A DNA stretch of 64,000 nt, from contig OY987242.1 of the NCBI GenBank assembly GCA_963920765.1, positions 20,546,002 to 20,610,001 on the forward strand, given 5' to 3'. The notes under the pieces are model-generated. The model was not told the origin of the DNA. It worked only from the letters and a program-made list of their open reading frames with translations, and ran no database searches. The translations under genes and the position numbers were made by a program. The first letter of the stretch is position 1. Each line of letters opens with the position of its first letter. This DNA comes from Ulota crispa (lineage: Eukaryota; Streptophyta; Bryopsida; Orthotrichales; Orthotrichaceae). This document shows, piece by piece, positions 971 through 62,462 of this stretch.

Positions 971-1625
971 TTAACCCCTCAACGCTCCTGGAATTTTGGA
1001 GTATCTCAAAATTTGCTTGAAAGTGAACAAAATGCTGGCATTATGATCAATCTTATCAATTTTCTTTGAAATGTAACAGTACAAATTCAAAGAAAGACAT
1101 ATTATAGATTGCATACAAAAAGAAATCACAACTATATCACTTATGGATTGAAAGATTATAATGTTTAATCATGAGGATGTTTAAACTATGCAAGTGATTT
1201 GAAGTCTTTTAATCCTTTTTTTGCATCTCAAACCTAAAATTGAGGGTACCAAAAAAATATGAGTATGTAAAGTATAACATGCATAACTCCAATCAATTTA
1301 TTGCTTCTCAAAATCTATTCTACAATTTTTTTAAATGAATTTTTAATGCAATTTTTTCTCCAAGTTCTAGTGTACTTGAGGCTCATTTCCAAGAGCCTTC
1401 AACACTAAAAAATTGAAGATTTGCAAGGGACACCTTTGCACAAAATCTTGAATTGACAAATCATGTTAATTCATTTTCAAGATCAAACTCTTGATGCTGA
1501 AACTAGACTTCAACAACAATTTAGATATAATAATAACCACAAAAAAAATCTTGAAAAAACTTTGGGCATCTTTGAACAACATTTGGAGGGGCGCAATTTG
1601 AGCCCCTCGGGCGTTGAGGGGTTAA
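971..1625. mobile_element. TTAA-flanked non-autonomous element, family A copy 1 (piggyBac-like)
   Basis: The left end reads TTAACCCCTCAACGCTCC and the right end GGGCGTTGAGGGGTTAA, so TTAA flanks inverted ends of about 13 bp beginning CCC. The 655-bp body has no credible gene. Its interior resembles 34889-35542 over most of its length, including a stretch near 1370-1440 about a signal of the form AGTGTACTTGAGGCTC, so these are two copies of one family. TTAA plus CCC/GGG ends is the hallmark of the piggyBac superfamily; the assignment is inference because no transposase is present. Confidence 0.8.
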
Positions 1626-1769
1626 TTATCTACCACAACAATCAAAAGACCAATGAAACCTACATCGTAAAATAATTGAAGGGTGTACATACTTCATATT
1701 TTATCTACATTCATCACTATTTGATGAGAGATTTGTTGTAAAATGAAATCAAGGAGCTATAGGTTGACT

Positions 1770-2131
1770 TTAACCCTTAAAGGACGGATGGATCACTGTG
1801 GCTTGCCCTGCCTGTAGCAGTCTACAATGTTTTGCACGTGGGCACCAGTAGTATTGCTTGAAATAGTTGGAAAAGTCAACTGTGCATGGTGCCCTCATCA
1901 AAATTGCAAGAAGGGCAGCTTGGGAGTTAACACCATGTTTCTGGATCTTATCACAATTTGGGTTACAAAAAAAATGCATCTGAAGAGGTAATTTTTTGTC
2001 TTCCATGATGGACCATGTGTTTATGGTCATTTTTGAAAAAAATCAAATGAAAAACGACTTTTTTCTTAATCATAGAATATTTTTTCAAAGCTGGAAGACG
2101 TTTTTTGTCCTTTTCGAAGTTTAGGGGTTAA
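1770..2131. mobile_element. TTAA-flanked short element (piggyBac-like, singleton)
   Basis: The ends read TTAACCCTTAAAGGAC on the left and AGTTTAGGGGTTAA on the right, with TTAA at both termini. The inverted repeat is imperfect beyond the first dozen bases. The 362-bp body matches no other element here. An open frame of 86 codons on the minus strand starts inside the left end and has no recognisable domain. Confidence 0.55.
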
Positions 2132-2329
2132 TCATATTGTGTTGGAGATCATGATTTTACAAAATGCAATAAAACAAAGAAAAACTCAAAATGAAAGATT
2201 CCAATTTTATGAAGAATTGCATGTGTGAAGTCAAGTTGTAATCATCACAAACTTAGATGAAAAAAAATACACATAATTTTACATGGATAGAAGGATTTGT
2301 GTTGTTTTTGCATGAAAACACAAAATGTT

Positions 2330-2424
2330 TTAACCCTTAAACATCAATGGGGACAAAAATTGTCCCTTGCAAATACACTTAGCTTGTATATTTGCAGCAT
2401 TAGGCCTTGGCGCTTAGGGGTTAA
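2330..2424. mobile_element. 95-bp TTAA-flanked miniature element
   Basis: Only 95 bp long, it starts TTAACCCTTAAACATC and ends GGCGCTTAGGGGTTAA. Directly inside the left end is a small hairpin, GGGGACAAAAATTGTCCC. It is little more than two ends, and its size suggests internal deletion of a longer element. Confidence 0.6.
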
Positions 2425-2577
2425 CATTTTCTTAAGTGTAGATTGCCTATAAAAAAATCACTTTAATTCACATTTGCAAAATGAAAATGTACTTGATTAT
2501 TGCACACACTTAACCATTTTAGCATTATTCATGTAGCAAACTAGTGAACCCTTGTATCTACTAGAAAGAAACATGTA

Positions 2578-2891: not shown

Positions 2892-3576
2892 TAAACAATC
2901 ATTTATATATTGAGGAACATTGTTGGATTCCAAAGGAAGTTCTTTATTGTACAAAATGTCAATGCTTTCTTATATGTCCAGCTTATAAGTTTCAAAAATA
3001 CAAATATCAACCAAAGATTTAAAGTGATATTACTTAAAAAATTGTTATTTGTACTTTGGACCCAAACAATGATTATTTTGCATTCATACTATGTTGTGTT
3101 ATTAGTTTTGTATTTTTAAATTATGATACCACACTAATAGAAAATGGGTCCAAATCAAGTGGTCTTAATTAGCACAAGTATGTGGTAATCAACACAACTT
3201 TGTTCAAAATGTTCAAATCAAGACATCCAAATGTGCCGAATCTTGAGTATCAAATATAATCTTATTGAGATGTTAATTTGGTAATTGCAAACATTGGAAA
3301 ATCATATGATTGGTGAATTGTGTTGACATAACAAAGAACAAATAAATCCGTATGCTTCTTGATTAATTTGGAAAATTTCAATCATAAGCAATTTTCTTAT
3401 ATTTACATCTTGCATCACTTTCCCTAATGAAGACTTCAACCTTTTTATAAAGTCACAAGTTGTAGCGCATTTGAATTTTGTTCAAAACCCTTGAGTATCT
3501 TTTAGGATTTTAATGGCTAACTGAAACTCAGAAATATTTACCTCCTCATGAGTCTAATAGAGGTTGTTTTTAACCG

Positions 3577-3706
3577 CACTACAAGAAAATCATGGTCAAA
3601 TTTATAGAAAGTTAACAAAAATTGTGACCTATCATATAGTATATTGTAGATTAGGTCACAATCTTTGGCAACTTTTTGTAGATTTGACTTTGGTTTTCTT
3701 GTAGTG
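3577..3706. mobile_element. CACTA-type miniature element
   Basis: The 130-bp unit begins CACTACAAGAAAATC and ends GGTTTTCTTGTAGTG, the terminal signature of CACTA (CMC/EnSpm) transposons. The outer 3-bp flanks (ccg and cct) nearly match, as expected of a 3-bp target duplication. The inner sequence is itself almost palindromic, with ATTGTGACCTA opposed to TAGGTCACAAT, so the whole element could fold as one hairpin. Confidence 0.75.
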
Positions 3707-6397
3707 CCTACAAGCCCAAATTGCATTTTTTTTGGCAATATAGCAATTTTGGGCAGGCTAGCACTTGTAGAAAAATAAATATGTTTTCACAAAAATACTT
3801 AGAGGATGTGTGCCTAAGGAGTAGCTTTCCAATGCAACAATTTTCAACCCATTTCAACTTGTAAAAACAAAGTCATGATGAAATATGTAGTCTTGTTTGC
3901 TCAAGGGGCAGCATAGGCAAAAAAATTACATTGCACCTGAAATTTTGGAATTTTGCCCAAAGGTTGAGGGGTAAAGATATCTCCTTGTCAAATCTGATCC
4001 AACCTCATTCTATGAATGCAGTTGTTTTTACTTACTGTTCTTTACTTCACCTTTGTTAAAAGTGGCCCTATGTTGATCAATTTTTGGCCAATTTCCCTTT
4101 TTTTTACCCTCCTTTGAAGCTAGCTAAAATACAAAACTTCATCATTTCATATTTCAAAAAGATTCTTGTATGTGAAAGCTAAAAATTGTTAAAAAAAACT
4201 TTGTAGCTAGGAGAATTTTCTTGAAGCTAGTTTTTGTATTCTAATTTTTACGTATGTGTTCTTCAATTCAAAATGTTCTGAAAATTCTTAAGCATATGAC
4301 CAACTCTCTCATAAAGGTCTATCTAAAAAGTCACAATAAAATAAGTGGGATCAATTGGTGCTAAAGCTACCCTAAACTAAAGCTGCCCAAAAATTGAATG
4401 CCCTCAATAAAAACTATTTTTCACTTCAAAACTTATAATCTCACAATTTTTGCAATAAATATATTTCAATATATCATTATATCATAATGAAGTAGTCTAA
4501 CACTAGATACCACAATTTAGTGCACTAAAATTAATTTACCATTTTTTGATGCCTTTTCTTTCATAACGACTCATTCTTGGTGTTTTTTGGTGATATATAG
4601 TCAAAGAACTTTAGGAATTTTTTAATTTGAGTATGTGCCAGAAAGAAAAAGTTGTTTTTCTAATTAATTCATCAAAGGTTTAATTATTCATTAAAATATT
4701 TAAAAGTATGACATGTTTGAGCTATATTCAATGGGTTAATTCTTTAAAAATTTGATATATCAGTTTCTTTTGTTAACATAAGTCTCAGTATCTTTTTTTT
4801 TCCTTGGAAAATGATGCGGGTTGTGTTTCAAGATAAAAATCATATGTTTTTTTGTTCATATGAGAAATCTGTTAGTTGCTTGTTCTTCACAAATCTTAGA
4901 ATACCTTCAAAATGTACCGTACTTGTGCATTCTTGATTTTTTTAATGATGGTCCTACTATATAACAATATAATTTATGTCATAATGGTTCATATATGGAA
5001 CCTAGATGGATTGATTCTTAAAGGCACTAGACCAAATTTGATTGACTTTGCTTGAGTTATGACAAAATCATTTCAAGTTTGAGATACGAAACTTTGGCTA
5101 TAAGTACAAAAGGTTTCCGTAAAAAAATTCGCTTGCTTTCCAACCTCTCCTACCTTTGCCGCTTTTGGAGGGATTGTGATCTTGTTCTATCATGTAGTAG
5201 AAAGTAAATTGATAGCATGACCACTTTCAATACTTTCAATGTGATTTATTTGTTCTTCATTGATTGTGTTAATAAATTGAATTCCGGTAATCATCCAAGG
5301 TTTCATAGTTAAAAGAAAATCAAAGCTTCTCAAAGAGCTTTTCTTCACAATATTGTTAGTTTTCTAAAGGAAAAAACAATGTTTTTGTCACAAATTTTTA
5401 CATTTTTTTTGGAAAAAACCCTTTTTTTGGGGTGCATGGAACAAGTGCAAACACACTCAACATCTCTTCCAAAGCTTTTTCAAATGGAATTTGACAAAAA
5501 AGACAAAAAAATCCACTTACTCATAACAAAATTTATTTTGTATATCATGAAAAATGCCAATTATCCTCTTGTAAAATGGGACCTAAGAACAATGTTCAAA
5601 ATTAAATAATTCAATTTGAATGTGAAAAGGAGAGATTTGACATCCCTAATGACTTTGGAAATAGCAAGCTCCATGGCCACAAGACTCATGTGCTATTGTT
5701 GTTGTTACAATTCAATTTTTTGGAATTGAAATCATGGATTATAATAAAGCCAATCTTTTGGATGGGCTTAATGTAAGAGAAAGAGTCTTGCAAGTCTTGC
5801 TTGTGCACATGAATGGTGATAGCAGTAGAGTTGCAAAGGTGTTTTGATTTTTTTATAGTAAAACTTAATAGAATTTGACAAATATTAATTAAAACAAAAT
5901 TGAGATTAAATATTGAACTATTACTAACAAACATTGCAACAATTTGTTTGCACACATGTTGATTACGTGTGTCCTCTTTTTGTAATGGTTAGTTCTTATT
6001 GAAGCTAATAGGATAAACAGTTCCTTTGCTTATACTATATTTTGTATTTTTTCATTGCTTTTATAGTTTTTTATCAACATAATAGCAAGTTGAATTTTAA
6101 GCAATGCAACACAATTTTTACCCCAATTTCAAGATGCAATGCTAATTGAGTGATGTCTTAGGATTTTGTCTTATTTCAAGAGATGTTAAAGCTTCAATAA
6201 TACATGAAGCATTAAATTTCCTTACCAACGCAGGTCTTTATGGATCCTCTTGTTTATTATAACATTATTTTCTAAACAACAAATCTTTATATTTTATTAT
6301 AGCGTGATTGCAATGTTGGTTGCAAAAACAAATAGAAGGTTTACAATAAGGTAAAAATGCTAAGTAGGGGACCAAAATACTAGTACACTTGGTTGAA
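3707..6397. other. AT-rich non-coding DNA
   Basis: There is no convincing gene. Near 3958-3976 the string GGTTGAGGGGTAAA resembles the right end of a TTAA-flanked element, but I found no left partner. The rest is homopolymer-rich AT DNA with chance open frames. Confidence 0.4.
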
Positions 6398-18345: not shown

Positions 18346-19304
18346 TTAACTCCTAAAGGTCCAAGTGGTCTCTCGGGGGTCAAGTGGGGTTTTGGGCATG
18401 TACCTAGAGCTAAGTTATTTTATATGATTTTCTGAAACTTTTATTGAAGATGGAGAATTCAAAAATCTACATGGGCATGTAAATTTTTCTTCATTTTGAC
18501 ATTTATTGAAGAAGTTATGCATGAATAACTAAAAAACAGGGGAGATAGGGGCAGCCCAAAAAAAATTGCATTTTTCTAAAATTAAAATTTGGAATTTGTT
18601 CTTTAGATTTTTATGTGTGCGGGAAGCTTTGAATCATTCAATTTTGATTTATGAGATGAAAGTTATGAGAATTTTAGTTTGCAGGTAGGTATGGGACTCC
18701 CAAACCTCTATTCCTTTTGCCCTTTGTAAAATTTGGTGCTTTACTTTTTGAGCTCTTTGTGTATTTGTTTTTTGACTTTTTTTTTTTTTTTCCAAGTTGT
18801 AGTAAACTAAGATTCCTTGGTTTTCACCATTTGGATCAAAGTAGTTCATACTTCTGAATTTTACATATATCCTCCAATTTTGCCTAGTGTATATGCAAAT
18901 TTCATGTCCTTATAGCATTGCAAGATTTTACAAAGTATGATCAACACCTCCAATTCATTTGAGAATTCTCCCACACTTACCTGGCTTGGTCTTCTACATG
19001 GAAAAAATAAACCTCAACTTTGCCTAGAGCAATTTTTTTGATACAGGAGTGGTCAAAGGCTTCTAAAATTTTTGGGCAACACGGAAAAAAACTTTTTTTT
19101 TCACTTTAGATGTCAATATCTCACTTGTGTACATCTAGAATGAGCTGATTTTTTTCCCACAAGTACCTTCCATAGTCTAAGGCAAGATCTTACAATTGGA
19201 TTTCCAAAAAACTGTTTTACTACCTTTTTACTCATTCGCCTAAAAGTGGCAGTTTTTTTTAGTGTTTTTTCACAAAAAAAAGGGCTTGGGCCTTTAGGGG
19301 TGAA
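18346..19304. mobile_element. TTAA-flanked element, family F copy 1 (piggyBac-like)
   Basis: The left end is TTAACTCCTAAAGGTCCAAG; the right end is CTTGGGCCTTTAGGGGTGAA, where TGAA is a decayed TTAA. The 959-bp body matches 61502-62462 along its length in the same orientation, including ACATTTATTGAAGAAGTTAT near 18500. It has long A and T runs and no gene. It is the more decayed of the two copies at its ends. Confidence 0.8.
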
Positions 19305-19308
19305 CTAT

Positions 19309-30857: not shown

Positions 30858-31910
30858 ATGGCGACTAAGAGCTTGAATACTGTTGTGCTGGCGCTGGTGA
30901 TGGCGCTGGCGGCGGTGAGCAGCGTGTGGATGAAAGGGGCGGACGCTGCGTGCCCGGATATCGACTTGGAAGTGTGCCTGGCAGCGGCAGTAGCGGATGT
31001 GCAACCCTCCACCGAATGCTGCACTGCCCTCACCACATACACTTCCACCAACGACGTGACCTGTCTGTGCGAGGCTGCCAGCGGCGCCGTGTTTTTCACC
31101 TCCAACCCTGTCGAGTACGCCATCATGATCCCCCAGAAGTGCAGCCTCACCTACGAGGCTGGCACCACCTGCGCTGGTACCCTCACCTTCACCTTCACCG
31201 GGTGTTAAGTAACTCTCTCTGGAAACTCGGCTCGTCCCTGGAATCAGTTTTTCTGAACTATCATTTTCTAAAACTTGCTCTGACTAATGTATGCCATGTG
31301 GAGAGTTCTTTGGACCTATTTCTGTGTCATGTGGTTGAGTGGAATCTGGAGCCTGGTTTCTCTATGCCTATGCTAGCTAGTTGTACTGGTTTTCAACTTT
31401 GGGCTCCTTGTTCCCGTCCTTGTTTCAGTTACTTAGTATGCTAATCTTAATGGAGACTGTGTACTATTGCTCAATTGAAGGACTGGTAATCTTTTAAAAG
31501 TCTGGATAAAAGATTCACTGGGACTCTGGGAGGATTGAGGCCGTTAGTCAGGGCTAACAGGAGTGAATTTCGGTCCCTTTTCAGCCCCTCAAGCTCCCAA
31601 GCCTCGGCAGCATGAATGAACATAGTGTCAGCTCTTATCAGTGAAGCGAAAGAAACCTCCGGTCCACACAATTTGAATAAACCAATGCCTTACAATGACA
31701 GAGGAGAAGGATTAAACATGCACTTATCTCCAGTTCACTGGCGACTCACTAACCAATGACAGAAACGCTTCCTGGGATATCCGAGGTGGCATTTTCTGAG
31801 TTACAACTGGGCTCGTCTCGTGGAAAATCTACCTGCCACCTCAGCATTAACCCGCTTAACGATGTGCATTTGTTGGCTGCGCAGGTATTGTGATACCGGG
31901 AGGCCAGTAA
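30858..31910 (+). CDS. non-specific lipid transfer protein, DIR1-like (2 exons), second gene
   Basis: A paralogue of the gene at 27327 in the same orientation. Exon 1 is 30858-31176 and exon 2 is 31885-31910, joined by a 708-bp GT-AG intron, giving 114 residues. MATKSLNTVVLALVMAL starts a signal peptide ending near GADAA. The eight cysteines are in family order (EVCLAAA, TECCTAL, TCLCEAA, PQKCSLTY, TTCAG). The last exon adds IVIPGGQ, almost the same tail as the first gene. Unspliced, the frame runs on only ten codons to TAA. A polyadenylation signal AATAAA lies at 32217-32222. From 70 bp into the intron, the gene is part of a block duplicated at 49821. Confidence 0.9.
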
Positions 31911-33834: not shown

Positions 33835-33911
33835 CATTTTCAATATACCCAATTCTTAGAGTTGTTGCCACATGAACTCTTGTTTGATGAAAGTTATAAT
33901 AAGACATTTCT

Positions 33912-34233: not shown

Positions 34234-34770
34234 TTAACCCCTAAATGCCCAATCAACCATTTTTTGGTTGCTGTCCTTTTTTTGGACTGCCCAAAATGAA
34301 AAAATTGATTTTTTGAAAAAATTGAAAAAAATCTCATATAGAAAAACAAGTCTACTTTCCAACCCAATTTGAATCATGTCAATTCAAGTTAAACTTCATC
34401 AAAGAGAAATTTTCAAAGAAAACCACTTCAATATTTGCTAGTGTTACAAAATTTACTATTTTGGGAAACTAATGATATTCTCTCCATCAAAACTATTGCA
34501 TTTTTGAACTTGTTTATTTTTAAGCAATTGTACCAAATTTCAAACTCTATGAATAAAATTTGTAATTTTGATGAATTCTAAATGGTAAATGCTTATAAAT
34601 TCATTTTAGAAGAGTACAAAACTTTTTTTGAATGTTTAACCATATAAATTATTATTAAACATCATGATTCTTGTTTTCTCTTTTGAAACAAACTTCATTG
34701 AAGTTACAAAAGTATCATTTTAAAACACATTTAAGTTTTGCCCTTACTCCCTTGGGCGTTTAGGGGTCAA
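34234..34770. mobile_element. TTAA-flanked element (piggyBac-like, singleton)
   Basis: The left end is TTAACCCCTAAATGCCCAA and the right end TTGGGCGTTTAGGGGTCAA, a 19-bp inverted repeat with one TTAA decayed to TCAA. The paralogous block has an empty site with CTAA at the same point, so exactly four bases are duplicated. The 537-bp body is AT-rich and has no gene. Confidence 0.85.
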
Positions 34771-35542: not shown

Positions 35543-36549
35543 AGAGCTTTAAAAGTAGCTTTGCTACAGAGCCCCATGAAGACGTGCATGATACAAATGG
35601 TAGGAACATGCAAGGAGAGAGGGCTAAGGTAATGTGCTCTAATTTGGTTCATGCATTTTGAAATGCTCATGTAGAGCTAGCAGAAAGTGTGCATGACGGT
35701 CAACAAATGGACAAGCCTTTCCAAGTGAGGGGTATGTGCTTGCAAGTAAACAATTTTAGTAGCCAAAGAGAGTGCCATGATCCATGGTTGAGTGAGCTTA
35801 GTGGTCATAATTGTGTTCAGATTTGTTTTTCAATAAAATATAAATGTATGTCATATTAAAATGAATAAAAATTTATTTTCAATCATAATTTGATTATTAG
35901 AGTACGGAATGGGTGCTTGCTTGCTTTTAAAGAAATTAGTTTAGCATCCTTGATTTTATAATGATTGGTTTTAGGACAAATATGCTCCATTTACAAGCCG
36001 CCTTTGAATCATGAATGCTACAACCTACGATTAAGAAGAGCTACCTATCACATATGCACCTTTTGCTTTGATAAATTGTAGCTAATTCATAACAACTCAA
36101 AAAATTATAAATATCAAATGACCAAAGAATTGTTTCTTCTTTAACTCTTTTACCAAAAATATTTCTAAATTGCTAAGCTAACCCAATTTTTCCACAGATT
36201 TCCTCTTCCTCGTAGATAGTCCATTCATGAGCCTCCTACCTTAGAGGAGGTTCCTATAGTGCTTCGGTATATTAACACTCGGTTCATATAGTACTTCGGT
36301 ATATTAACACTCGATTCTCATGGAGTTCCCAAATCTCCCAATTGAGAAGGAATAAATCAATTATTGTTACAATTATTACTAACCTCTCGCCGTGCCGGGT
36401 ACCTCAAACAAGACGAAATATGGGACATTTTTGAAATTAACCTTATAAATTCTAAATTACTTGTTCTATGCCTATGGATAATTTCAACATTTGTTAATTA
36501 CAATAAATTGCATTTTGATTGTTTTGCATCAAGGTATATTGGTGAGGTA

Positions 36550-37198: not shown

Positions 37199-38111
37199 TT
37201 AACCCTTTAAAGTCCACACACATTTTCAAAAAATTCATTAGAAACTGGGGTAGTAAACTTGTATGTGCGGTTGAATCAAATATGAACCTGATTTCAATAG
37301 TCCAACCATATAAATGGGAACTACATCTTGTTTATTATAAATTTTCAAAATTTCAACTAGATTCACCGTTGGAGGTAATATATTATTATGATTGAGTGGG
37401 TTGTATGTGGAAAATCTCTAATTTTTGTGCTTGTGTGGTTTTGGATCTTACTACTTCATACAAGCTTTGTTTGAGAAAAGCCTTATATTTCTAAAAAGGG
37501 GGGTTTCTCAACTTTCCAATGAGACTAGTTTCACACAAAATGAATAAAAATAACAATCACAAGGTGTAGTTAAGTTAACAAAAAGGCTCAAAAATCCCAC
37601 TTTGTTTGCTACCCAAAAACAATTATACAAGAAAATGGATAAATGCTAAGGAAAATCCAATTGGAGAAAACAATAAAGAATTGGCCTTAAATGTAGAGCA
37701 ACAAATTTTTAAAATGAAATAATAACACCATTTCAATAGATTTTCAAATATTATAATTATACTACTACCGTATAGAGAAACAATACAAGCATATTTCTTG
37801 AGGAATTTGAAATATTTTAGGATTGCACAATTGAAATTTGACATTCTTCTTAGATGTTTGATGTATTGTGCTGTTGCTTTGATCCATCTTTGACCAGATA
37901 TGAATATGTATTTTGAGGCCATGCTATATAAACATCATAATTTATCAACTCACATGCCTCATTTCATTGTGTTTTATTTGGTTGAATGCAAAATTCTTGT
38001 GAGCACAAGCCCTCTTCAAGACCGGTTTCCAAATTGTTGAACAATTTACTCTATAAGCCAAAAACCACTCTCCCGAACCAAAATATGGTTGGGTGGTCTC
38101 TAAAGGGATAA
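37199..38111. mobile_element. TTAA-flanked element, family G copy 1 (piggyBac-like)
   Basis: The left end is TTAACCCTTTAAAGTCCAC; the right end is GTGGTCTCTAAAGGGATAA, with a decayed terminal TTAA. The 913-bp body matches 50232-51145 in the same orientation throughout. It lies directly upstream of the kinase C-terminal exons and may have separated them from the rest of the gene. There is no credible gene inside. Confidence 0.82.
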
Positions 38112-44757: not shown

Positions 44758-45181
44758 GTATGACAGGCTATCCTTTCCTTTGTTTTTTACCAACCCAATT
44801 TTGTTACATTTTTTATGAATTACCCACACATTTTTTTACACAAACAAATTTTTACCCGTACATTTTTTTTCTCATGCAAATTTTTTAAAACGCAAATTTT
44901 TATCTACACGAGTTTCTTATCCAACCAAGTTTTTATCCATGCACATTTAATTATCCACATAGTACACCTATCTTGTAAAAGGATTGCCATATGAATAAAC
45001 AAAGTTCTGTCATATAGGTAGATTGGCTTCTATTCGTGGAAGCTTCTAGAAATTTCAAGGGTCAAAAATCATCCTATGATGGAAAATGGCTTCTATTTGT
45101 GGAAGCTTCTAGAAATTTCAAGGGTCAAAAATTGTCCAATGATGGAGAAGAAGTTTCAAGAGTCAAAAATTATCCAATGAT

Positions 45182-45381
45182 NNNNNNNNNNNNNNNNNNN
45201 NNNNNNNNNNNNNNNNNNNNNNNNNNNNNNNNNNNNNNNNNNNNNNNNNNNNNNNNNNNNNNNNNNNNNNNNNNNNNNNNNNNNNNNNNNNNNNNNNNNN
45301 NNNNNNNNNNNNNNNNNNNNNNNNNNNNNNNNNNNNNNNNNNNNNNNNNNNNNNNNNNNNNNNNNNNNNNNNNNNNNNNNN
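45182..45381. other. assembly gap (200 N)
   Basis: Exactly 200 undetermined bases, a size often used for gaps of unknown length. It lies inside the palindrome, where short-read and scaffold assembly commonly fail. Confidence 0.99.
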
Positions 45382-47260: not shown

Positions 47261-47454
47261 GGAAAAGTTTCATCCTTGTTTCTCAATGGTTGGTTGTCTT
47301 TTACTTCACTTAACCTTTACAATGCTTAACACATTGGCTATTACAATGTTTAACACGTCGGCTTTTACTTGCTTAACACTTACGCTTTTGCTTTGCTATT
47401 GGCTCTGGCTTTTACTTTATTCAATATTTTTCAAAACCCAAACCATGGATGCCT

Positions 47455-47466
47455 TTTAAATAAATA
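47455..47466 (+). promoter_or_regulatory. TATA-like box before the 47668 frame
   Basis: TTTAAATAAATA followed by about 200 bp of C/T-rich leader with repeated TTTCTAGCTTTCTACAATAT-like units, then the ATG at 47668. It looks like a real promoter and leader carried into the palindrome. The mirror copy is at 43622-43633. Confidence 0.4.
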
Positions 47467-47667
47467 CTACATCAGAGAGAGACATCACTTTTCCTTCCCA
47501 TTTCCCTTTCTTCTCTCCTCTTTCTAGCTTTCTACAATATTCTCCCTTTCTTTTCTCCTCTTTCTAGCTCTCTACAGTATTCTCCCTTTGTTGTCATCTC
47601 TTTTAGCTCTTTGCAGTATTCTCATTCTGCTTCCTACTACTTTGTTGGAGACGCTCTTTGATACACC

Positions 47668-47817
47668 ATGGAGCTGATTATGCTTCTGACTTGTGAGGGT
47701 GGCCTAAACAAGGACCCTCACACGCCAAAGAAATTCTTGAAGTTTCTTTGTGCTGCGGTGGCCTCACAAAGCAATCGGCGTTTGGCTATGGTCATGGATG
47801 CTGTGCTTAAGACCTAG
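47668..47817 (+). pseudogene. unrecognised short frame in the right palindrome arm
   Basis: An ATG after a TATA-like box and C/T-rich leader opens a 49-codon frame (MELIMLLTCEGG, PHTPKKFLKFLCAAVASQSN, LAMVMDAVLKT) that ends at TAG 47815-47817. The same frame stays open afterwards to 48015 (MMQYYEGTGLCILVEMLV, LLVLEHLAKLNMVKG). The leucine-rich helical look recalls ARM/HEAT-type repeats, but I cannot name the family. Probably the broken first exon of a host gene. Confidence 0.4.
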
Positions 47818-48166
47818 AGCCATTCCATCTTGAAACCAGTTTTCATGATGCAATATTATGAGGGTACAGGCCTTTGTATTCTGGTGGAGATGCTGGTGAA
47901 GTTTGATGCCCACCATTTGATGATTGACATTGTTCGGAAGGGTTTACTTGTGCTTGAGCATTTGGCAAAGCTCAACATGGTGAAAGGCAGAAGACATGCC
48001 CACCACACTAGATGAGAGTGTTTGCAACAATATTTGCAAGAGTTTTGCAACTCCCAACAATACAAGCCCCCACATGTTGGTGGACCTGCTATTAAGGCTA
48101 GAGTCTAGCCATTTCATGGCCGCCATTGCTTAGAAGGGCTTACTTGTGTCTAAGCATTTGGCGAAG

Positions 48167-48265
48167 CTCAACTTGGTGAAAGGCTAATGACTAGCCCACC
48201 TCAACTTGGTGAAAGGCTGATGACTAGCCCACCTCAACTTGGTGAAAGGCTGACAACTAGCCCAC
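48167..48265. repeat. 33-bp tandem repeat, three copies (mirror)
   Basis: The inverted partner of 42823-42921 in the right arm. Confidence 0.9.
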
Positions 48266-48962
48266 TAGAATAGATAGGAGTGCTAGCAAAAGTTTAGCAA
48301 CTCCCAGCAAAAAAATTGCCATGATCTTACAATTGATTATGATAATAAAGTTTGACATTGGCTTTTAAGCCTTTTTGTCCATGTGGTATAGTTTGCAATG
48401 GTACTGCACAAGATCTGTTGGTTTATTATTGCTTGCTCCTTGGAGTTTGTTCATCCACTAACGCTTTCATACACTCCCATACTCGACTAATGCATGTACA
48501 AAAAGGAGAAAACTCTAAAAACAATTGAAATCTAACAAGTCCCAATGCAAAGATTCAACCCACACATTATAAAAAAACTCAGACCATTTAGAACATATAC
48601 AAGTAGTTATATCATCAAAACGGAACACAAGTGAGAGAACATAGAGTAGACACCCTGAGACTATATCCAACAAGAACTAGTGTCATCAACTTGATGATGC
48701 TTAGTCCAATCCACCTACTCCGTCTCAGAAGTGAGCAGCAACTTCAATTCTGCGACAAACAGAGTGTTTGAAGCACAACATAACTCTACTTCTCAAAGAC
48801 TTCCCCTACAATCTTTAGCTTCTAACGGTCTACAAATCTTTGACGTACAACATGCCTGGCAACTAAAAACACAAACCTGTTCAACTACAAGCTCAAATCT
48901 TATGCAAGAGATCTAGCATGAGATATAATCCAGCATTGAACTTCTCCAAAACACATTTATTA

Positions 48963-49380
48963 GGGCATCCCCAATGCAGCCATAATAGAGGCAGGCAAAA
49001 GCTTGTGCAATTGTTTAAACCGGACTTGAGCAAAAACATGGGCTCCAATGCAGCAAGTAAACCATATTGCATTTTTCAGGGCTCCCTACATAAGAGCCCC
49101 TCTCCTGCAAATTTTCACTATTTGGAGAGTCTTGCATACCACTCTAGCTCTGACAGTGACGCAATTTCAGAAAATTTCAGATACTTCTGACATGAATCAG
49201 CCACACATAAGCACTTAAAAAAGACATAAACTATTAAAAACCCATGTTTAGTGAGTGTCAGAGCTTATGTGCATTGGGGCTACTACACTGGGGAAATGCC
49301 CCTACTCTACATCTGACGCATAATGACACACGATGTGACAAAGTTTGGGGAGCTGATATTCCGGCTGCATTGGGATGCCC
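48963..49380. mobile_element. PIF/Harbinger-like miniature element, family C copy 3
   Basis: The inverted partner of 41708-42125, with the same ends and flanking TTA. It was copied with the palindrome arm and did not arise by a separate insertion. Confidence 0.88.
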
Positions 49381-49528
49381 TTAGGGCCTAGAATTACCCA
49401 CCACCTCCAACAACCCTGTCAACCTCGATGTCCATACTGAACGAGAAACTGCACGCAATCAACTGCAAGAGAGTGAAAATACTCTATTAAGAAAGGCAAT
49501 GAGGATCACCAATCTCAATTCCTGTCAA

Positions 49529-49694
49529 TCATGCGACTGTCATGTTACAGGAATTCTTCATATTGTAGCCACGCCGGTGGTTCGCAGCAACTGTTGGTAG
49601 TGCATGAAAAGCCTGCTGATAATTTTCTCCACCAGATATCTGAGGTGTAGCAGATGGAGGAGCAGAGGAAAAGACGGCAGGATGAACATAACAC
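49529..49694 (-). pseudogene. inverted copy of the kinase last exon
   Basis: The minus strand repeats 41394-41559, ending in the same TGA. The preceding kinase exon (41171-41246) lies just outside the palindrome and is not copied, so this is an isolated exon. Confidence 0.88.
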
Positions 49695-50231
49695 CTGCCA
49701 TCAAAACAATGAAGATCGCCATTGTTAAGACATTGTAAAGAACAATTTCATGTTTATTAAGAAAATTATGTGCTCAGAATTTTCTATACCATATTCATAA
49801 AAGCAGTTCGTGTATCACTGTTTTCGGAACTTTCATTTCCTAAATCTTTCTTTAATTGTATGCCTTTGTGGAGTATTCCTTAGCATTTCTGTCTGATGGG
49901 GGTGAGTGGAATCTGCAGCCTTATTTCTAGATGCGTGTTCAACTGGTTTTCAACTTTTGGCCCGGGCTTTGGGCTGAGGACTTGTTTCAGTTACTTAGTA
50001 TGTTAATCTCAATGGAGACTGTGTACTCGTGCTCAATTGATGGTATATGTTTAAAATCTGGACACAAAATTCACTGTTAGAATTGATGTCGTTTGTTAGG
50101 GCTAGTGCCTAATAGGAGTGAGTTTGGCCCCCTTCCAGCCCCTCCAGCTCCCAAGCCTCGGCAGTATTAATGAACATAGTGTCAGTTCGTATTAGTCAAG
50201 CGAAAAAAACATCCGGGTGAATACAATTTGG

Positions 50232-51145
50232 TTAACTCTTTAAGAACCACACCCACTTTCACAAAATCCACTAGAAACAGGGGCTGTAAGCTTAGATGTG
50301 CAATTTACTCAAATATGGACCCATTTTCAGTAATCCAACTGTACAAATGGGAAGTACACCTTGTTCACTTTAAAGCACCAAAATTTTAACTAAATCTACT
50401 ATTGGAAATGAAATATTATTATGCTTGGGCAAGCCGTATGCAGAAAATCTTTAGTGTTTTGTGCTTGTGTGGTTTTGAATGTTATTGCTTCATGTAGGCT
50501 TTGATTGAAAAGAGTCTTACATATCTAGAAAGCAGGGTTTCTCACTTTTCCAACAAGACTAGTTTCACACAAAATAGACAAAAATAGCAATCACAAGGTG
50601 TAGCTAAGTGGACAAAAAGGGTAAAAAATCTCATTTTCTTTGCTACCCTAAAACAATTCTACAAGAAATTTGATAATTGTTATGGAAAATTTGATTGGTG
50701 AAAGCAATCAAAAATTGGCCTTAAATGTAGGATGACGTATTTTAAAGCCAAAATGACAACACCATTTTAGTAGATTTTCAAATACTACAATTATACTACT
50801 ACCATATAGGAAAACAATACAAGTGTATTTCTTAAGCAATTTGAAATTTTTTAGGATTGTGCAATTGAAACTTGACGTTCTTCTTGCATATTTGATGTAT
50901 TGTGTTGTTGCTTTGATCCATCTTTGACAAAAAATGGATACGTATTTTGAAGCCATGCCGTATAAACATCATTATTTTTCAACTCACATACCTGATTACT
51001 TTGTTATTTTTTAGATGGATGCAAAATTCTTGTAATCACATGCGTACTTCAGGACCGAATTCCAAATTATTGAGTGATTTCAACCTATAAGCCAAAAACC
51101 ACTACCAGCGACCAAAATATGGTCGCGTGGTCCTTAAAGGGTTAA
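50232..51145. mobile_element. TTAA-flanked element, family G copy 2 (piggyBac-like)
   Basis: The left end is TTAACTCTTTAAGAACCAC and the right end GTGGTCCTTAAAGGGTTAA, with TTAA intact on both sides. The left block has ATAA at the empty site, so exactly four bases are duplicated. The body matches 37199-38111. Confidence 0.87.
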
Positions 51146-52972: not shown

Positions 52973-55900
52973 CCCTCCCTCACTTGAACAATCTCTGACT
53001 TGTTGTTGTGTTGGGCGTTGTTGTGGAGATGTCGCGGTGCAAGTGTGTTTTGTCTAGCGTTGCGTGCCTGTTGGGGAGATATGTGGATGGATTGTCGCTG
53101 GTGAACACTCGACTTGGCAAGTGTTGTTGTTCTTGGAAATCTTGTCGGCGAGATGTCTTAAGCGGGTGTTGCCTTTGTTTGCAGGTGGAGATAGGGCTTC
53201 TAGTCTTGTGGCTACTGGCCAATGCTCTTCGTCGAATATGTTTTGGGTGTCAAGCTGCTTGTTTGAGAGTGTGGTTGTTGCTGCAAAGAAGATGATGTGG
53301 GATGCGAGGTAATCTTAAAGACACGATTCCTACTAGTTTCGGTGGTGGAAGTATGGAGGTTATGGAAGGCGGAGAGGTTAGGATTACGGAGGGTCAAAGT
53401 GTGGGTAGTGATAATCCTGAAGCATTGTGGAAATAGTATTTCAATAGTCTTGAGGACTGGTGGGATAATCAAACTACTCGTAGAAACCCTAAGGCTCCGG
53501 ATTTTAAGAATAGGAGTACGGGGAAAGCTTTGTGGATTGGGAGTTGGAATACGCTTACGTGGGTTTGTGCAAGATTTGTGGAGTAGGTTGTGTGAGGGTT
53601 AAGAGGGGTACTACTCCTCCATTGTGCCTGTTTTCTACAAAGGCTTTGTAGGGAAGAGGTTTTGTGAGGAAATCCGCTAACTGGGACGTGGATGACACAA
53701 AGCTCACTTGTACGGCTCATGCCTTTGCTACTTTGAAAATAAAATGATGTTGAATTTCTATGTGTTTCATTTTGGCATGAAGGACTAGGTTTTCTACAAG
53801 TTTAATACATGATTGATTGTCACCGTAAAGGGGTGTGGGTTCTCTAATATCCAGTTCTAATTTTGTCATTAGTCTTTTGAAGTAGAGAATGTCTTTGGCT
53901 GCATCTATCAAAACTTTGTATTTTGCCTCTGTGCTTGATAGTGATACTGTTGGCTGCATCTTGCTGCTCCAGCAGATGCTTGTGTCTCCAAGTTTGTATA
54001 GGATTCCGGACATTGACCTTCTTGAATCTACATCTCTTCCCTAATCGGCATCTGCATAGGTGTGGCAAGTATCATTGGTAGATGATAGCATATTGAGTCT
54101 GTAGTCTAGTGTGCCGCTGAGGTACCTCAGGATTTTCTTTGCTGCAAGAAAGTGTGTAGTTTTGGGGTCTTGCATGTATTTGGATACTCTACTAACAGCA
54201 ATAGATCTGGCCTTATATAGGAGAGGTAGATGAGGCTGCCTACTAAGGAGCGATAGATTTTAGGGTCACATTTTTCTATGCCCATAGTCTTTTGGAGTTG
54301 TTCATTTGGATCTATTGGGAGCTTGGTGCTATTGCAGTTCTGAAGGCCAAATTTCTAGAGGAGCTTAAGGATGTAGCCTCTTTGGTTTAGGAAAATACCT
54401 CCTTTGTGTTTGTGAATTTCTATTCCTAGGTAGTTGCTATTTTGCCCAAGGTCTGTTATTTTAAAATTGGCACTCAGTTCTTGTTTGAGTCTAGTAATTT
54501 TTTGTTGATCATCTCTTGTGATTAACAAGTCATCTATGTACAAGAGGAGTATGACAAATTTGCCATCTATTTTTTGAAAGTATAGGTTTGGGTCATTATT
54601 GCTCCTGGTTAGATTTTGTCCTCTCAACCGTTGGTCTATTCTATCGTACCAGGCCTTGGGAGCCTATTTGAGTCCATAGAGGGCTCTATGTATCTTGCAT
54701 TTTTTCTCTCCCTCTTCATGACTAGGAAATCCTTTTGGATTTCCATGAGTATCTCTTCATCTATTGTGCTGTTAAGAAAGGCTATGATAATGTCCATCTG
54801 AAAAAAGTTTCCAACCATTTTTAGCAGCCTTTGCTAAAGTTAGGAGGATAGTGGACCATCTGACAACAAGAGCAAACACATCAAAGTAGTCAATGCCTTG
54901 TCACTGTTAGAAGCCTCTGGCTACAATTTGGGCTTTAAGTTTTTCTACTCCTCCATGATTCCATTTGAATTTTTCTTTATTTTAAAAATCCATTTGGCTA
55001 TAGTAGGGATTTTGTTTCTGAAACAGTCTATAATGGTCCAAGTGTTGTTTTTTAGGATAGAGCCAGTCTTACTTTGGATGGCTTTTTGCCATGCTAGGTG
55101 TTGAGTAGCCTTTGCAAAGTTTATGGGCTCTCTTGTTATTTCTGAGGATAACGTCCAAAAATCGCGTAATTTGATTAAGAGTGTCCTAAGTTGAAGTGGG
55201 TGTCTCCTATCGACTGGACCAGGCAATGGGTTGGTGGGTGCGGGATTCAAGTTGGGCATTTTAGCATGCTGCTGGATCTATTTGATATGTTGGTCTCTAG
55301 GGTTGGGTTTGGGGGGTGGATACTCTGCTATGTCGGGGTCATAGTCTAGATAGCTTGATTCAAAGCTGGTGTGGAAATTGAGAGGATGGTTATTTGGTTC
55401 TTGTTGGTTTAGGTATTGATAGCTTACTCTACTTTCATCAAAGATCACATCTATGCTAATAAGTACTTTTGCTGAGATTTATAGAATAGGCAATATGCCT
55501 TTGACTCATTGTTGAAACCAAGGACAAAACACAGAAGTGTTTTGCTATCAAGTTTCTTTTGTCTCTCTTGAGGTACTTGGACGTAGGCTATGCATCTAAA
55601 TATTTTGAGGTTGGAGATGTCTGGCATCGTACCTGAGTATTTGGCCTCCAGGGTCTATCTGGAGTTGGCACATGTTGGACTTCTGTTGATCAGATAGTTG
55701 GCATGCGAAACAGCCTCAGTCCAGAGGTGCAGCAGAAGGTTGCAATCATGTGAGATACTGCACGCGCGTTCCATCAACGTTCTGTTCCTCTGTTTTGAGA
55801 CGTTGTTTTGCTGCGGTGTATGTGCTTGGGTCAGTTCCTATTGGATGCCATGTTTGGAGCAGAAAGTTAAGAAGTCTTGAGACATGTACTCCTCCCCTCG

Positions 55901-56656
55901 ATCTGAGCGAAGTACGTGGATCTTATTTCTTGTTTCTAGTTTGATCTTGTGGCAAACTTGTGAAAGTGAAGGAGTGTCCTTGCTCTTCATGAAGTAAGTC
56001 CAATTTTTATGGGAGTAATCATTGGTGAAGACAAGAACATAGCAAGAACCTCCAAGAAAGGGGCATTGCATTGAGCCCATCAAGTCGGAGTGTATGCGTT
56101 CTCCTGGTACGCTGGACCTGGTGAGAGACTACTTTGGGAAACATTCTCTGTGTTGACATCCAACGAAGCAGCATGAGCAAACTAATGGGGTCCGTTCAAT
56201 ATGTGGTAGGCTGTGAATGTTGGATGTCTGAGAAAGATGGTGTAGCTCAATGAAGCTAAGGTGGCCAAAGCGTCTGTGCCATAGGGTGGCAGTGTCTTGG
56301 TTCTTCAAGTTCTTAGCGGATAAGGTGTCAATCTGGTTCTTGAGAAAGTACATGCCATTAGATGGGTCTTTGCTGCCGCATGCAAGAACGTGGTTTTGTT
56401 AGTCTACTATCCAACAGTGCTGGTGTGAAAAAACTATTCTCGTTCCACAATCAGTGATTAAGCCAATAGAGATCAAGTGTTTCTTCATGCTAGGGACGTA
56501 GTGAACAGAGTTGAGCTTTATTGCACTGGAGCTTGTTTTAATAGTGGCTAAGCCTGACCCTTTGACAGGGTGGGACTCACCTCCTCTTGTTTTAACCTCA
56601 TGAATTTCTACAGCAGAGGAACTGGGCTAACCGTTGAGCTTCTAACGGTCTGCTGC

Positions 56657-56801
56657 CACAAGAAAAAAAACAAGTCCTAAATGACTAAGTGACAATAACT
56701 AAACCATGACTGTACAATCATTTTACAGTCATTTTGTAGTTGTTGTATAGTCATTGCAGTCATTGTCACTTAGTCATTTAAGACCTATTTTTTTACTAGT
56801 G
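56657..56801. mobile_element. CACTA-type miniature element inside the Copia fossil
   Basis: The ends are CACAAGAAAAAAAAC on the left and, inverted, CACTAGTAAAAAAAT; further in, both contain AAATGACTAAGTGACAAT. The flanking bases are TGC on each side (56654-56656 and 56802-56804), a perfect 3-bp duplication. The 145-bp unit is nearly palindromic. Confidence 0.82.
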
Positions 56802-58028
56802 TGCTATGTGAGTAGTGGCGCCACTATCTAAATGCCAGGGGTTGGTGTCCCAATGGTAGTAGTCATAGTCATAAGCATATTGGGACATTTCCGCAGAATT
56901 TGCAAATCTGGTGCCTTTGGGAGGATTGGTATCCGGATAAGAACGGACTTTATGAGGTTCTAGATAATCTCTAGCAAAGTGTCCTATCTTGTTACAATTG
57001 TAACATACCAGCTGTGGGAGGCAATAGTGACCATAAGGTCCTTTGTCGGAGTATCCGATCCGCGTCCTCCTAGATATCCCCGTGATGGGTATTTGCGGCC
57101 ACGAGTTTGCTGCCATCAACCACCACGTCCGCGGCTGAGGGAGTAAAATGTTGCCTGAAGTGTAAAAGTGGCGGCTAGGGCTTCTTTGTTGCCAAACTAT
57201 TGGTTGCGGTGCAGACGGCGATGCTGTTTGGAGAGGAAACTGGCATCAAGTTGGGTGAATGTTAGCTTTGGCCTTTGATGCATGAGAGACTGAATGGTGC
57301 TCTTGTACAATTGTGGGAGTCCATTAAGGACGATATGGATGAGTTGTCAAACTGCAATCTTCTCTTCCATGCTGCTTAACTGATTTTTGAGTTCTCTTGT
57401 GTGTTTGATGTAGTCCTCAATGGGGCTGCCTTCTATCATTCTTAGTGTCTATAGTTGGCTCATCAGGGTCAAAACCTGAGATTGATCTCCTAAGTAAAAT
57501 TGGTTTTTCAATGTCTACCATACATCAGCTGGATCTACGTATTCTGCAATGAGATCCACTAAGTCATCAGATACATATAGTAATAAGAGTTTACAAGCCA
57601 AGACTTGTTTGCGTTTGAATTTGGCTTTTGGCATCTCTTTGCCATTGATGGTCACTGGAAACTGGGTTGATGATTGTTTGGTGTTAGTGATGCTCCAAAA
57701 CATCTCTCCTCTCAAAATAGCTCTCATCTTGAGGGCCCATATATAATAATTGGAGGAGCCTTTTAGCTTATCTCCCTCCCTGAATGCTACATCTCTGGCG
57801 TCAGTCATCTTCCTCGCTTGCTCTTGGATGGACGCTGTCTCTAAAGTCTATCTCTATACAAAAAATAATAATAGTAAACACTCTCTAGTTTTGTTATTGA
57901 CTAAAAAAAACGTTTTGTCGTGACACAGGAGCAAAGCTGCACTGGTCGACTATCTATCAGACTGGAGTGGTCGTGACACAAGAGCAGAGCTGCACTGGTC
58001 GACTAGCTAGTTTATTGCTCTAATACCA

Positions 58029-58314: not shown

Positions 58315-58553
58315 ATTCCATTTTTAGTATACCCAATTCTTAGAGTTGTTGCCACATGAACCCTTGTTTGATGAAAGTTAAAATAGGACATTGCTATTTT
58401 GTGAGTGTAAAAAGGTGAGCCACAAATGGTAAGCTAAGATTTTGTGAATGGAAACAAAATTTGAGCTCAAAATCAAAGCAAAAATTTAAAAAATAGCAAG
58501 TTTTTCAAGAGATGAAAATTTAAAATGTATAATTATAAGGCCCAATGTACATA

Positions 58554-58860
58554 GTCAACGTGTTATTCAATAATTTGGGAAAACAATGGGTAACATTTTG
58601 TACCTCACCTTAATCCAAAATTGTCATCTTAATTTAAATTAAGGAGGTCACTTGAAACCTAGTTAATGAACTTCTATCCAAAATTTCAGAAGTTAATGAA
58701 CTTTTTGTCCTAAAGAGCATATTTTTGGAAGATGTATATCTCATTTTATTGAAAAACAGTCAACGGATTCCCAATTCAAGGGATATGATGATCTCTAGAA
58801 AGAAAGAAAAAGCTAGAAATCCCACTTTGTACGCTTTTTTCCAAATTAACGAATAACGCT
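58554..58860. mobile_element. short insertion with 3-bp ATA duplication, family unknown
   Basis: ATA flanks it (58551-58553 and 58861-58863), and the left block has a single ACA at the matching site. The imperfect inverted ends share GTTATTC and AATTTGG. It is 307 bp long with no gene. A 3-bp duplication would fit PIF/Harbinger or CACTA, but the ends fit neither well. Confidence 0.65.
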
Positions 58861-60100
58861 ATAATTATAAATAAAATTTAATATTCTAACAAAAGAACCT
58901 AGATTCATTGCTCACTGCTCATGAATACTTACTCATGGTATAGCATTTCCTAGTCAAAACATTGTTTCAAAATTTCAAATCCAAATGCTAATGCAGAGGC
59001 ATAAGACACAAATTTAAATTCAATCAATGAGAGGGTAGGAATAGGACTTTGTTACATTCCAAGACTACCGTACCTCAACTCCTAGTGTAAGGGCAAAACC
59101 TTGAAACTTCACAGAGCTTTAAAAGTAGCTTTGCTACAGAGTCCCATGAAGACGTGCACGATACTAACTGTAGGAACCTATAGGGAGAGAGGGCTAAGGT
59201 AGTGTGCTCTAATTTGGTTCATGCATTTTGAAGTGCTCATGTAGAGCTAGCAGAAAGTATGCATGACGTTTGATAAATGGACCAGCCTTTCTAAGTGGAG
59301 GGTACGTGCTTGCAAGTGAATAGTTTTAGGAACTTAAGAGAGTGATGTGAGTCACTATTGATTGTGCATATTGGTCATAATTGTGTTCAAATTTGTCTTT
59401 TAGTAAAATATAGATACATGTCATGTTAAAATAAATAAAAACTTATTTTGAATTAAAATTTGAATCATAGAATATGGAGTGGGTGCTTGCACACTTTAAA
59501 GAACTTAATTGAACATCCTTGGTTTTGTAATGGTTAGTTTTTGGACTCATGTGTTCTATTTACAAGTCGCCTTTGAATCATGAATCCTCCAACCTAAGAT
59601 CAAGCATAACTGCCTATGTACCTCTTACTTTGATAAATTGTAGCTAATTGATATAACAACTTAAAAATTTTTAAATTAAATGAACACATGATTTTTTCTT
59701 CTTTCTTTTGACTCTCTACCAAGAATATTTCCAAATTGCTAAGGTGACCCCATTTATCAGCAGATGTCCTCTTCCCTTTAGATGGTCCATTCATGAGCCC
59801 CCCTACCGTAGAGGAGGTTCCTATAGTGCTTCCGTGTATTCCCACTTGGTTCCCAAGGATTCATGGTGAGTTCCCAAATTTCCCAATTGAGAAGAATAAA
59901 TCAATTATTGTTACAATTATTACCAACCTCTGACCGTGCCGGGTATCTCAAACAAGACGAAACAGGGAACATTTTTTGGAATTAACCGTGTAAATTCTAA
60001 ATAACTCGTTCTAGGCCCATGGATAATTTCGATATTTGTTAATTACAATAAAATTTGTTTTGATTGTTTTTGTATCAAAGTATATTGGTGAGGTACTTGA

Positions 60101-60582
60101 GTTATGCAGCAACTTGATCTGAGAATCGCTTTACGTCAAGAGGCAATGAAGATGTCACCCACGCTCTAGAGACTGAGAGTAGTTTCAAGCAATATTGAGC
60201 CTCAAAAATTGAAAATAATTTAGGAATTAAACAATACCTTCCACCTGACCTTCCAGTAGATTATAGTCGATTTTGTATAAAACAAATTTGTCCTATGAAT
60301 GCCCGACTTCTAAGTACCACCGGTAGCATGTTGCCAAGGATATTGGGTTATTGAGGGCAAAAAGGAGTAGTTATCAATGTCATAAGTATTTTATGCAAAA
60401 ATTATGGTGGCTTGGGTTAAAAGTTGAATGTAACAAAATAGTCAACCCAAACCTAGAATGAAATCTCACTTTTCATGGTGCCAAAACTTCTTAATTATGA
60501 TGCCATGTAAACAAAATGCAAGGAGTTGATATATGGAACCTGGAATGTAGTGTGAATTGCTAAGTCTAAACTTTTGACTTTA
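60101..60582. other. non-coding stretch beyond the duplicated block
   Basis: Weak similarity to 36866-36950 continues briefly, then is lost. No gene recognised. Confidence 0.3.
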
Positions 60583-60896
60583 AGATATGTACACCCATAA
60601 GCGTTAGTGTCCCCATAATTGTCACCTCTGAAATCTTGGAAAATCTGTGGAATTGAATAAATGTAATGACAAGAATGTACAACATGTGAACATGAAATCT
60701 TGAAAGTGGTTATGGGTGCAATGGCAGTTTGCTCTTTAAAAATTCACAACTTATTCTCATAGTATCCAAATAATACATTTAAAAGTGCAAACTCATTATT
60801 TTTTTGTTCCTAATAAGATCCTATAATTTCCTAGTTGTTTATTGATACTTATCATGTTCAAAACCCTTAGTTTGACGCTTATGGGTGTACATACCT
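60583..60896. mobile_element. TA-flanked miniature element, family B copy 2
   Basis: Same length (314 bp) and orientation as 2578-2891, with only scattered differences. TA lies on both sides. The ends read AGATATGTACACCCATAAGC and the inverse of TGTACATACCT. Confidence 0.82.
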
Positions 60897-61501
60897 TACA
60901 CCAATCTAGTTCTCACATTGTAGTGGGATATGGGTCGTAATGTGAACCGCCGCTAAATATGTGCATTATTCCCTAAAGTTTGATGAGAGAACAAAGGGTG
61001 GGGTATCAGAGAATCTGATTTTGATATATTTTTTCTTGGTCAAATGCATGTTCCTAGATAAACTTTGCTTTTATACAAGAGCTTGTTGCAGGTCTAGTGT
61101 AACCCCTTCGCATGTTACTTAGCCAAATAGCGTAAGAGAATATTCACGCTCATTTCATAAAAAGAGCATTTTAGGGTCATTGAACCCTACAAAATGTCAA
61201 AATGAGCCAAAAGTGCAGGAAAGTAACTAGCAACTACATTACGAGAAGCTCTGTCCTATTTCTAGCTTGCTTTTTGAGTATGGTACCAAGCAACCAACAT
61301 TTAGGGAGAAATTTTGACTTCACTGCTAAAATTTGACATTTGGCTTATTCTCAATTGATTGTTCACAAGCATGTACGAAATATCTCCTATATTTACACTG
61401 TATCATACTACAACTATTTTTTTTTAAACTACCGGCTATTTTTATCTGGTCGTATCAACTTTCAACCATTACTTTTGCAATTTCAAACAACTAACAATAC
61501 A

Positions 61502-62462
61502 TTAACCCCTAAAGGACCAACTGTCCCCTTGGGGACAAATGGACCTTGGGCATGTACTTATGACTAAATCGTTTGTTATAAGTTTTTGAAAATTTTGAGG
61601 TTTTTTATAAATTTTTGAAATTTTTGAGGTTAGTGGGGAATTCAAAGATGTACGTGCACATCTAAATTTTTTTTCATTCTGACATTTATTGAAGAAGTTA
61701 TGCATGAATTTTGAAAAAATGGAGGAGGGCGAGCAATCCAAGCAGCCCAATTTTTTTTTATAATTATATTTTAAAAAATAAAAATTTGAAACTAATTCTT
61801 TAAATTTTTATGTATGTGAAAAGCTTTAAATCATTTAATTCTAATTGATGAGTGAGAACTTTTAGTTTGCGGGCAAGTATGGAACTCCCAAACCTCCATT
61901 CATTTTGCCCCTTGTTAAATTTGGTGCTTTAATTTTTTTTGGCTTTTTTTTTCCAAGTTGTAGTAGACTAAGATTCCTTGGTTTTCACCATTTGGATCAA
62001 AGTAACTCATATTTCTCAATTTTACATAAATCATCCAATCTTGCATAGTGTATATGCAAATTTCATGGCCTTACAACATTGCCATATTTTACAAAGTGTG
62101 ATCCACACCTCCAATTCATTTGAAAATTCTCCCACACTTACCTAACTTGGTCTTCAACATGGAAAAAATAAACCTCAACTTTGCGTAGAGCAACTTTGTT
62201 GATATTGGAGCAATCAAAGGCTTTTGAAATTTTTGGGCAGTAGGGAAAAAACTTTTTTTGCACTTTGGATGTCAATATCTCACTCCTCTACATCTAGAAT
62301 GAGCTGATTTTTTTTCTACAAGTTCCTCCCATAGTCTAGGGCAAGATCCTATAGTTGGATTTCTAAAAAAAACTTATTTTCCTACCTTTGTACTCATTCT
62401 CCAAAAAGTGGCTGTTTTCACTGATTTTCACAGAAAAATGGGCTTGGTTCTTTAGGGGTTAA
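61502..62462. mobile_element. TTAA-flanked element, family F copy 2 (piggyBac-like)
   Basis: The left end is TTAACCCCTAAAGGACCAA and the right end TTGGTTCTTTAGGGGTTAA, with both TTAA intact. Directly inside the left end is a hairpin TGTCCCCTTGGGGACA, similar to the one in the 2330 element. The 961-bp body matches 18346-19304. Confidence 0.85.

Follow-up and report, generated by a model that had tools for sequence, protein, structure and literature searches.

Nine TTAA-flanked, MITE-like elements of probable piggyBac type in the genome of Ulota crispa

Introduction

Which transposase moved a set of small elements that share their ends and differ in their interiors? The question is raised by a stretch of 64,000 bases (36.9% GC) of the Ulota crispa genome (Bryopsida, Orthotrichaceae; assembly GCA_963920765.1, contig OY987242.1, positions 20,546,002 to 20,610,001), hereafter the window. 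Nine segments of it have TTAACCC-type ends in inverted orientation; we call them elements A1, A2, B1, B2, C1, C2, D, E and F, the letters denoting families. Elements of the piggyBac type that resemble miniature inverted-repeat transposable elements (MITEs) are known in animals (PMC2872659). We propose that the nine are probably old, non-autonomous cut-and-paste DNA transposons of six MITE-like families, which would have been moved in trans by a transposase of piggyBac type or close kin.

Results

The original prediction, made from the letters of the window alone, had placed at least nine TTAA-flanked elements here and had regarded their ends as common to unrelated families. All nine that it listed are present at the predicted positions, and the common ends are borne out. 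The motif TTAACCCYTNAANGNCC, with at most two mismatches, matches the window 18 times, and these matches coincide one for one with the ends of the nine elements, in strict alternation of plus and minus orientation; 100 dinucleotide shuffles gave a mean of 1.01 matches and a maximum of 4. At three mismatches or fewer the count rises to 34 where 10.6 would be expected, and the 16 additional matches were taken as noise. TTAA is perfect at 15 of the 18 ends and flanks both sides of six elements, the three others having one altered base at the right end (Table 1), and the outermost two bases are TT at every end (18/18). Inward of TTAA, 16 of the 18 ends start with CCC (CCCC at 11, CCCT at 5), and CTCC and CTCT occur once each. 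Ungapped end repeats, TTAA counted, run from 12 bases in element D to about 22.

A profile trained on these ends gives them scores of at least 16.2 and every other window position at most 13.8. Since the profile had been trained on the very ends that it recovers, it was rebuilt with each family omitted in turn, and 17 of the 18 held-out ends still outscored all other positions of the window. The end-profile scan revealed no additional paired ends in the window, and thus neither further elements nor an autonomous one. Three versions of the window ends were also used to scan IMG/VR and matched 0, 4 and 0 stretches; the four are one conserved stretch in two versions, with a single match each and, in the DNA available, no second degenerate-end match, and we took them as chance.

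Insertion can be read directly where an empty site is at hand. Comparison of the window with itself places E, C2, A1 and B2 (four of the nine elements) in repeats that recur in the window without the insertion, as five empty sister copies in all. The flanks of each element were joined around a single TTAA and then aligned to the sister copies. Each empty junction has four bases in place of the TTAA...TTAA of the filled site, with small indels farther out in the flanks. Over the four sites, the two A1 copies counted once, 11 of 16 bases are identical to TTAA (chance P 0.002). The original prediction had named the junctions as the place to look for the duplication, and this reading of four insertions agrees with it: a 4-bp duplication at TTAA-like sites is well supported for these four, and the empty sites presumably once read TTAA. 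One repeat of unknown type, present in at least three copies, is the host of E, C2 and A1, a third of all the insertions.

The interiors form six groups, A, B and C with two copies each and D, E and F with one. Identity is 82.2% over 914 aligned bases between A1 and A2 (Kimura two-parameter distance, K2P, 0.21), 80.0% over 912 between B1 and B2 (0.24) and 76.0% over 650 between C1 and C2 (0.29); by this divergence, the copies are old. Altogether, the elements make up 6,050 bp, or 9.5% of the window. Six groups had been predicted to lack mutual similarity, and pairwise comparison indeed found no long similarity between families. The prediction went too far for four pairs of families, which are weakly similar at one end over 30 to 40 bp, a stretch that takes in the shared end repeat (E-values between 5e-5 and 0.018): the left end of E and the right end of B2 (77.5% over 40 bp, 5e-5), right of D and left of F (77% over 35, 8e-4), left of F and right of C2 (77% over 30, 0.004), and right of A1 and left of E (80% over 35, 0.018). 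Members of a further repeat family in the window, roughly 320 bp long, carry an inverted end of 26 bp, TAAGGTATGTACACCCATAAGCGTCA. The inner portion of this end, ACCCATAAGCGTCA, is similar to the end of element F (ACCCCTAAGCGCCA) but is not preceded by TTAA.

The elements have the structure of MITEs, being non-coding, 95-961 bp long and bounded by inverted ends, although those of 0.9 kb are long for the class. No element contains a stretch without a stop longer than 103 amino acids. In five elements the longest frames were searched and contain no transposase, Pfam giving only sub-threshold matches to unrelated families. In the window at large, 30 of the 99 open reading frames (ORFs) of at least 80 amino acids were scanned; neither DDE_Tnp_1_7 nor any other DNA transposase was found among these 30, shorter ORFs being left out and shorter remnants not sought. 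Matches above curated cut-offs were an EMC2-like TPR, two LTP_2 (also Tryp_alpha_amyl), a zinc knuckle, gag_pre-integrs, rve and RVT_2, the last four being parts of one copia element, and matches to Hydrophob_seed and copia gag stayed below the cut-off. Rfam and tRNA scans of the window gave no matches. Lipid-transfer proteins of the LTP_2 kind are land-plant proteins, and the two matches, together with the copia element, fit the plant host that had been assumed from the letters.

As for the superfamily, the ends of coral piggyBac elements and piggyBac MITEs have been published, and piggyBac is described in the same source as having terminal repeats of 12-19 bp with a CC[C/T]T terminal motif (PMC2872659). 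A first comparison used 12 rows of coral ends, which were left ends almost throughout and included three identical over the 13 bases. In a second comparison, right ends printed without alternative letters were added, giving 13 distinct 13-mers, and random 13-mers starting with CCC served as an extra null. All 13 fit the 13-base profile of the window ends at P < 0.01. Under the CCC-starting null, 10 of the 13 stay below 0.05, the best being AmiPB2 (CCCTTTAACGCCC) at 2e-5. TTAA with CCC ends fits piggyBac; Kolobok elements, which begin with purines, do not fit. As no transposase was found, membership of the nine elements in the piggyBac superfamily is inferred from ends and target site, and we regard it as likely. 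The original prediction had taken TTAA duplication and CCC/GGG ends for the piggyBac signature; the duplication at four insertions, the likeness to published ends and the non-coding interiors stand, and superfamily membership goes a step beyond what is shown.

Several observations weigh against assigning these elements to piggyBac, or against their reading as TTAA insertions. None of the five empty copies has an unchanged TTAA (Table 1), although some loss is expected because the flanks aligned beside the empty sites are only 67.6 to 88.4% identical. The second empty copy of A1 has a 2-base indel two bases away from the site, and for the remaining five elements the window offers no empty copy. 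D, E and F occur in one copy each within the window. The right end of B1 fails when its family is left out of the profile, being equalled or outscored by 18 other positions. Three of the 13 coral 13-mers (AmiPB3, AmiPB4 and CMITE V left) match the profile no better than other CCC-starting 13-mers do, and no transposase gene ties the window ends to piggyBac. The strict CC[C/T]T motif is found at only 5 of 18 ends, CCCC being the commoner start; coral CMITE III, filed as piggyBac, likewise has CCCC (PMC2872659). The end repeat of D, whose 12 bases include TTAA, falls below the published range. Animal piggyBac ends themselves vary, with CACTA, CCCTC, CCCTT and CCCAT motifs (PMC10813416) and CAC ends in many bee elements (PMC10140906).

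Table 1. Positions of the nine elements, their empty sites and other features of the window (element spans include both TTAAs)
Feature	Position	Strand	Remarks
Element C1	971..1625	.	655 bp; TTAA on either side; end TTAACCCCTCAACGC
Element D	1770..2131	.	362 bp; TTAA on either side
Element F	2330..2424	.	95 bp; TTAA on either side; subterminal palindrome GGGACA...TGTCCC
Element A1	18346..19304	.	959 bp; left TTAA, right with one altered base; host repeat has two empty sister copies
Element E	34234..34770	.	537 bp; left TTAA, right with one altered base; host repeat has empty sister copy
Element C2	34889..35542	.	654 bp; perfect 18-base end repeat including TTAA; empty sister copy
Element B1	37199..38111	.	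913 bp; left TTAA, right with one altered base
Element B2	50232..51145	.	914 bp; TTAA on either side; empty sister copy
Element A2	61502..62462	.	961 bp; TTAA on either side; subterminal palindrome TGTCCCCTTGGGGACA
Empty sites for E (CTAA) and C2 (TCAC)	58863..59172	+	in the sister copy of the repeat that received both
First empty site for A1 (TTAG)	36025..36150	-	sister copy
Second empty site for A1 (TTAG)	59575..59705	-	sister copy
Empty site for B2 (ATAA)	31615..31742	+	sister copy
Host repeat of E, C2 and A1	33835-36549, 58319-60095, 18193-19723
Repeat of about 320 bp	2576-2896, 36548-36865, 60581-60901		partial copy at 40938-41019
LTP_2 genes	27216-27671, 30828-31208	+	lipid-transfer-protein-like
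Copia retrotransposon pieces	54358-57847	-
Foldback	3576-3707
Inverted and direct copies	41268-49820		N run at 45182-45381

Discussion

Sola3 is a further superfamily with a TTAA target, and it is conceivable, though unlikely, that the nine elements are Sola3 elements moved by a Sola3 transposase. A review of land-plant transposable elements does record Sola (Sola1 in Physcomitrella, Sola in Capsicum) and, in the text available, not piggyBac, yet the plant Sola that it names is Sola1 (PMC9033089). In addition, the window ends resemble published piggyBac ends, in a comparison of which the Sola3 end motif was not part. The TTAA target is used by both piggyBac and Kolobok (PMC9587614), so that elements of Kolobok type would duplicate TTAA just as well (PMC9587614, PMC6004289). 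Kolobok termini read 5'-RR...YY-3', with two purines first and two pyrimidines last (PMC9587614), whereas all 18 window ends start with C. Kolobok was the sole other superfamily scored as a control against the end profile, and none of 12 Xenopus Kolobok ends fit it (P 0.31 to 0.97), making this origin extremely improbable.

MITEs of the kinds usual in plants would be another source, if a Tc1/mariner target (TA) or a PIF/Harbinger target (TTA/TAA) had been misread as TTAA. All three shorter targets are contained in TTAA, and both superfamilies are recorded for land plants (PMC9033089), but the ends make such a misreading very improbable. A TA target leaves the outside bases free, yet TT is outermost at all ends (P 2.5e-18 under independence). 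A 3-bp repeat beside CCC ends would read TAA on the left and TTA on the right, which is no direct repeat, as shown by the six elements that have TTAA at either end, together with the four whose empty copies are present. The four bases at the site in the empty copies contradict both superfamilies for four insertions. Finally, the window is AT-rich and has 440 TTAA, among which TTAACCC motifs could pair by chance; against 18 matches with a shuffle mean of 1.0, strict pairing and, for four elements, sister copies without the bounded segment, this is already contradicted and hardly deserves consideration.

Returning to a piggyBac-type origin, a transposase produced elsewhere in the genome would recognise the roughly 13-bp end, CCCYTNAANGNCC, excise the element by cutting at TTAA and insert it at a TTAA target, which would be duplicated. 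A single enzyme of this superfamily may have served all six families, and excision may have been seamless. It is tempting to speculate that the enzyme also binds a palindrome just inside the 13-bp end, a role suggested post hoc. Palindromes with a stem of at least 7 that begin at base 15 to 23 are found at 5 of 18 ends, against a background of 1.2% over the positions of the window and 0.9% over those within elements; with a stem of 5, the figures are 7 of 18 ends, 11.5% and 17.6%, a weak excess. At 7 of 18 ends, the palindrome starts at base 18 to 22, at a distance of 0 to 4 bp from the inner border of the 13-bp end. We regard these palindromes as a lead and not as a finding, because the range of 15 to 23 was picked after the ends had been inspected and the excess at stem 5 is weak. 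In T. ni piggyBac, a subterminal repeat lies 3 bp inside one end (PMC10140906). Unlike that repeat, the palindromes of the window are hairpin-like and family-specific, and they are absent at 11 of 18 ends in the count of starts at base 18 to 22.

The closest known counterparts are the CMITE families and AmiPB elements of Acropora coral (PMC2872659). As in the window, these duplicate TTAA, have 13-14 bp CCC-type ends and form several families; one locus is known with and without the element, and the AmiPB2 end is close to those of C and E. The coral set differs in its animal host, in MITEs of about 100 bp whose interior is conserved across families, and in the presence of known piggyBac genes, of which none was found in the window. 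T. ni piggyBac shares the TTAA target and short terminal repeats but is autonomous, with a 594-aa transposase (PMC10140906). Xenopus Kolobok elements and T2-MITEs also combine a TTAA target with MITE families, but their ends are AGGRR or AG where those of the window are CCC (PMC6004289). In the fern Ceratopteris richardii, a repeat table labels 1,230 copies (122 kb) as PiggyBac; this is a repeat-annotation label, which, unlike the elements of the window, comes without ends, target sites or empty sites (PMC6890710).

How unusual is the host? The original prediction had held that piggyBac is seldom described from land plants, which is partly right. The 2022 land-plant review mentioned above treats six superfamilies with terminal inverted repeats, and the word piggyBac is absent from the text available (PMC9033089). 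A 2024 plant review, by contrast, names PiggyBac among plant superfamilies, citing a general classification and giving no details in the part available (PMC10794571); there is also the label in Ceratopteris, and two animal papers mention piggyBac in plants in passing, without details in the parts available (PMC10140906, PMC10813416). Among the literature matches listed, no title or abstract opening describes piggyBac MITEs in a land plant. Because such MITEs are known in animals and piggyBac has been mentioned for plants (PMC10794571, PMC6890710, PMC10140906, PMC10813416), the host is unusual and the kind of element is known.

Well-bounded TTAA elements with empty sites would firm up the presence of piggyBac in a land plant. 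They would also direct attention to a transposase gene that deserves to be found, and would inform the question of an early loss of piggyBac in plants as against a later arrival through horizontal transfer. A wider proposal, about which we are slightly more doubtful than confident, is that this land-plant lineage harbours a large, long-lived and diverse piggyBac-like system. It would comprise at least six non-autonomous families with a common 13-bp end; in five of them a palindrome that may serve the transposase as a second site lies beside this end, on one side of the element or on both. Together the families would account for the share of the window given above. Such a system would imply a plant piggyBac transposase clade unrecorded in at least one review of land-plant transposable elements, as far as its available text goes.

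Other features of the window

The two LTP_2 genes are 62% identical at the DNA level over 191 bases and probably form a tandem pair. The copia retrotransposon is represented by pieces of a weak gag, a zinc knuckle, gag_pre-integrs, an integrase and a reverse transcriptase. Around a 200-base gap lie two duplicated segments, one of 2.7 kb in inverted orientation (99.8%) and one of 1.9 kb in direct orientation (100%); either the assembly is at fault here or the duplication is very recent. The foldback has two 56-base arms that are 84% complementary and end in GCACTACAAGAAAA; we take it to resemble CACTA-type plant MITEs.

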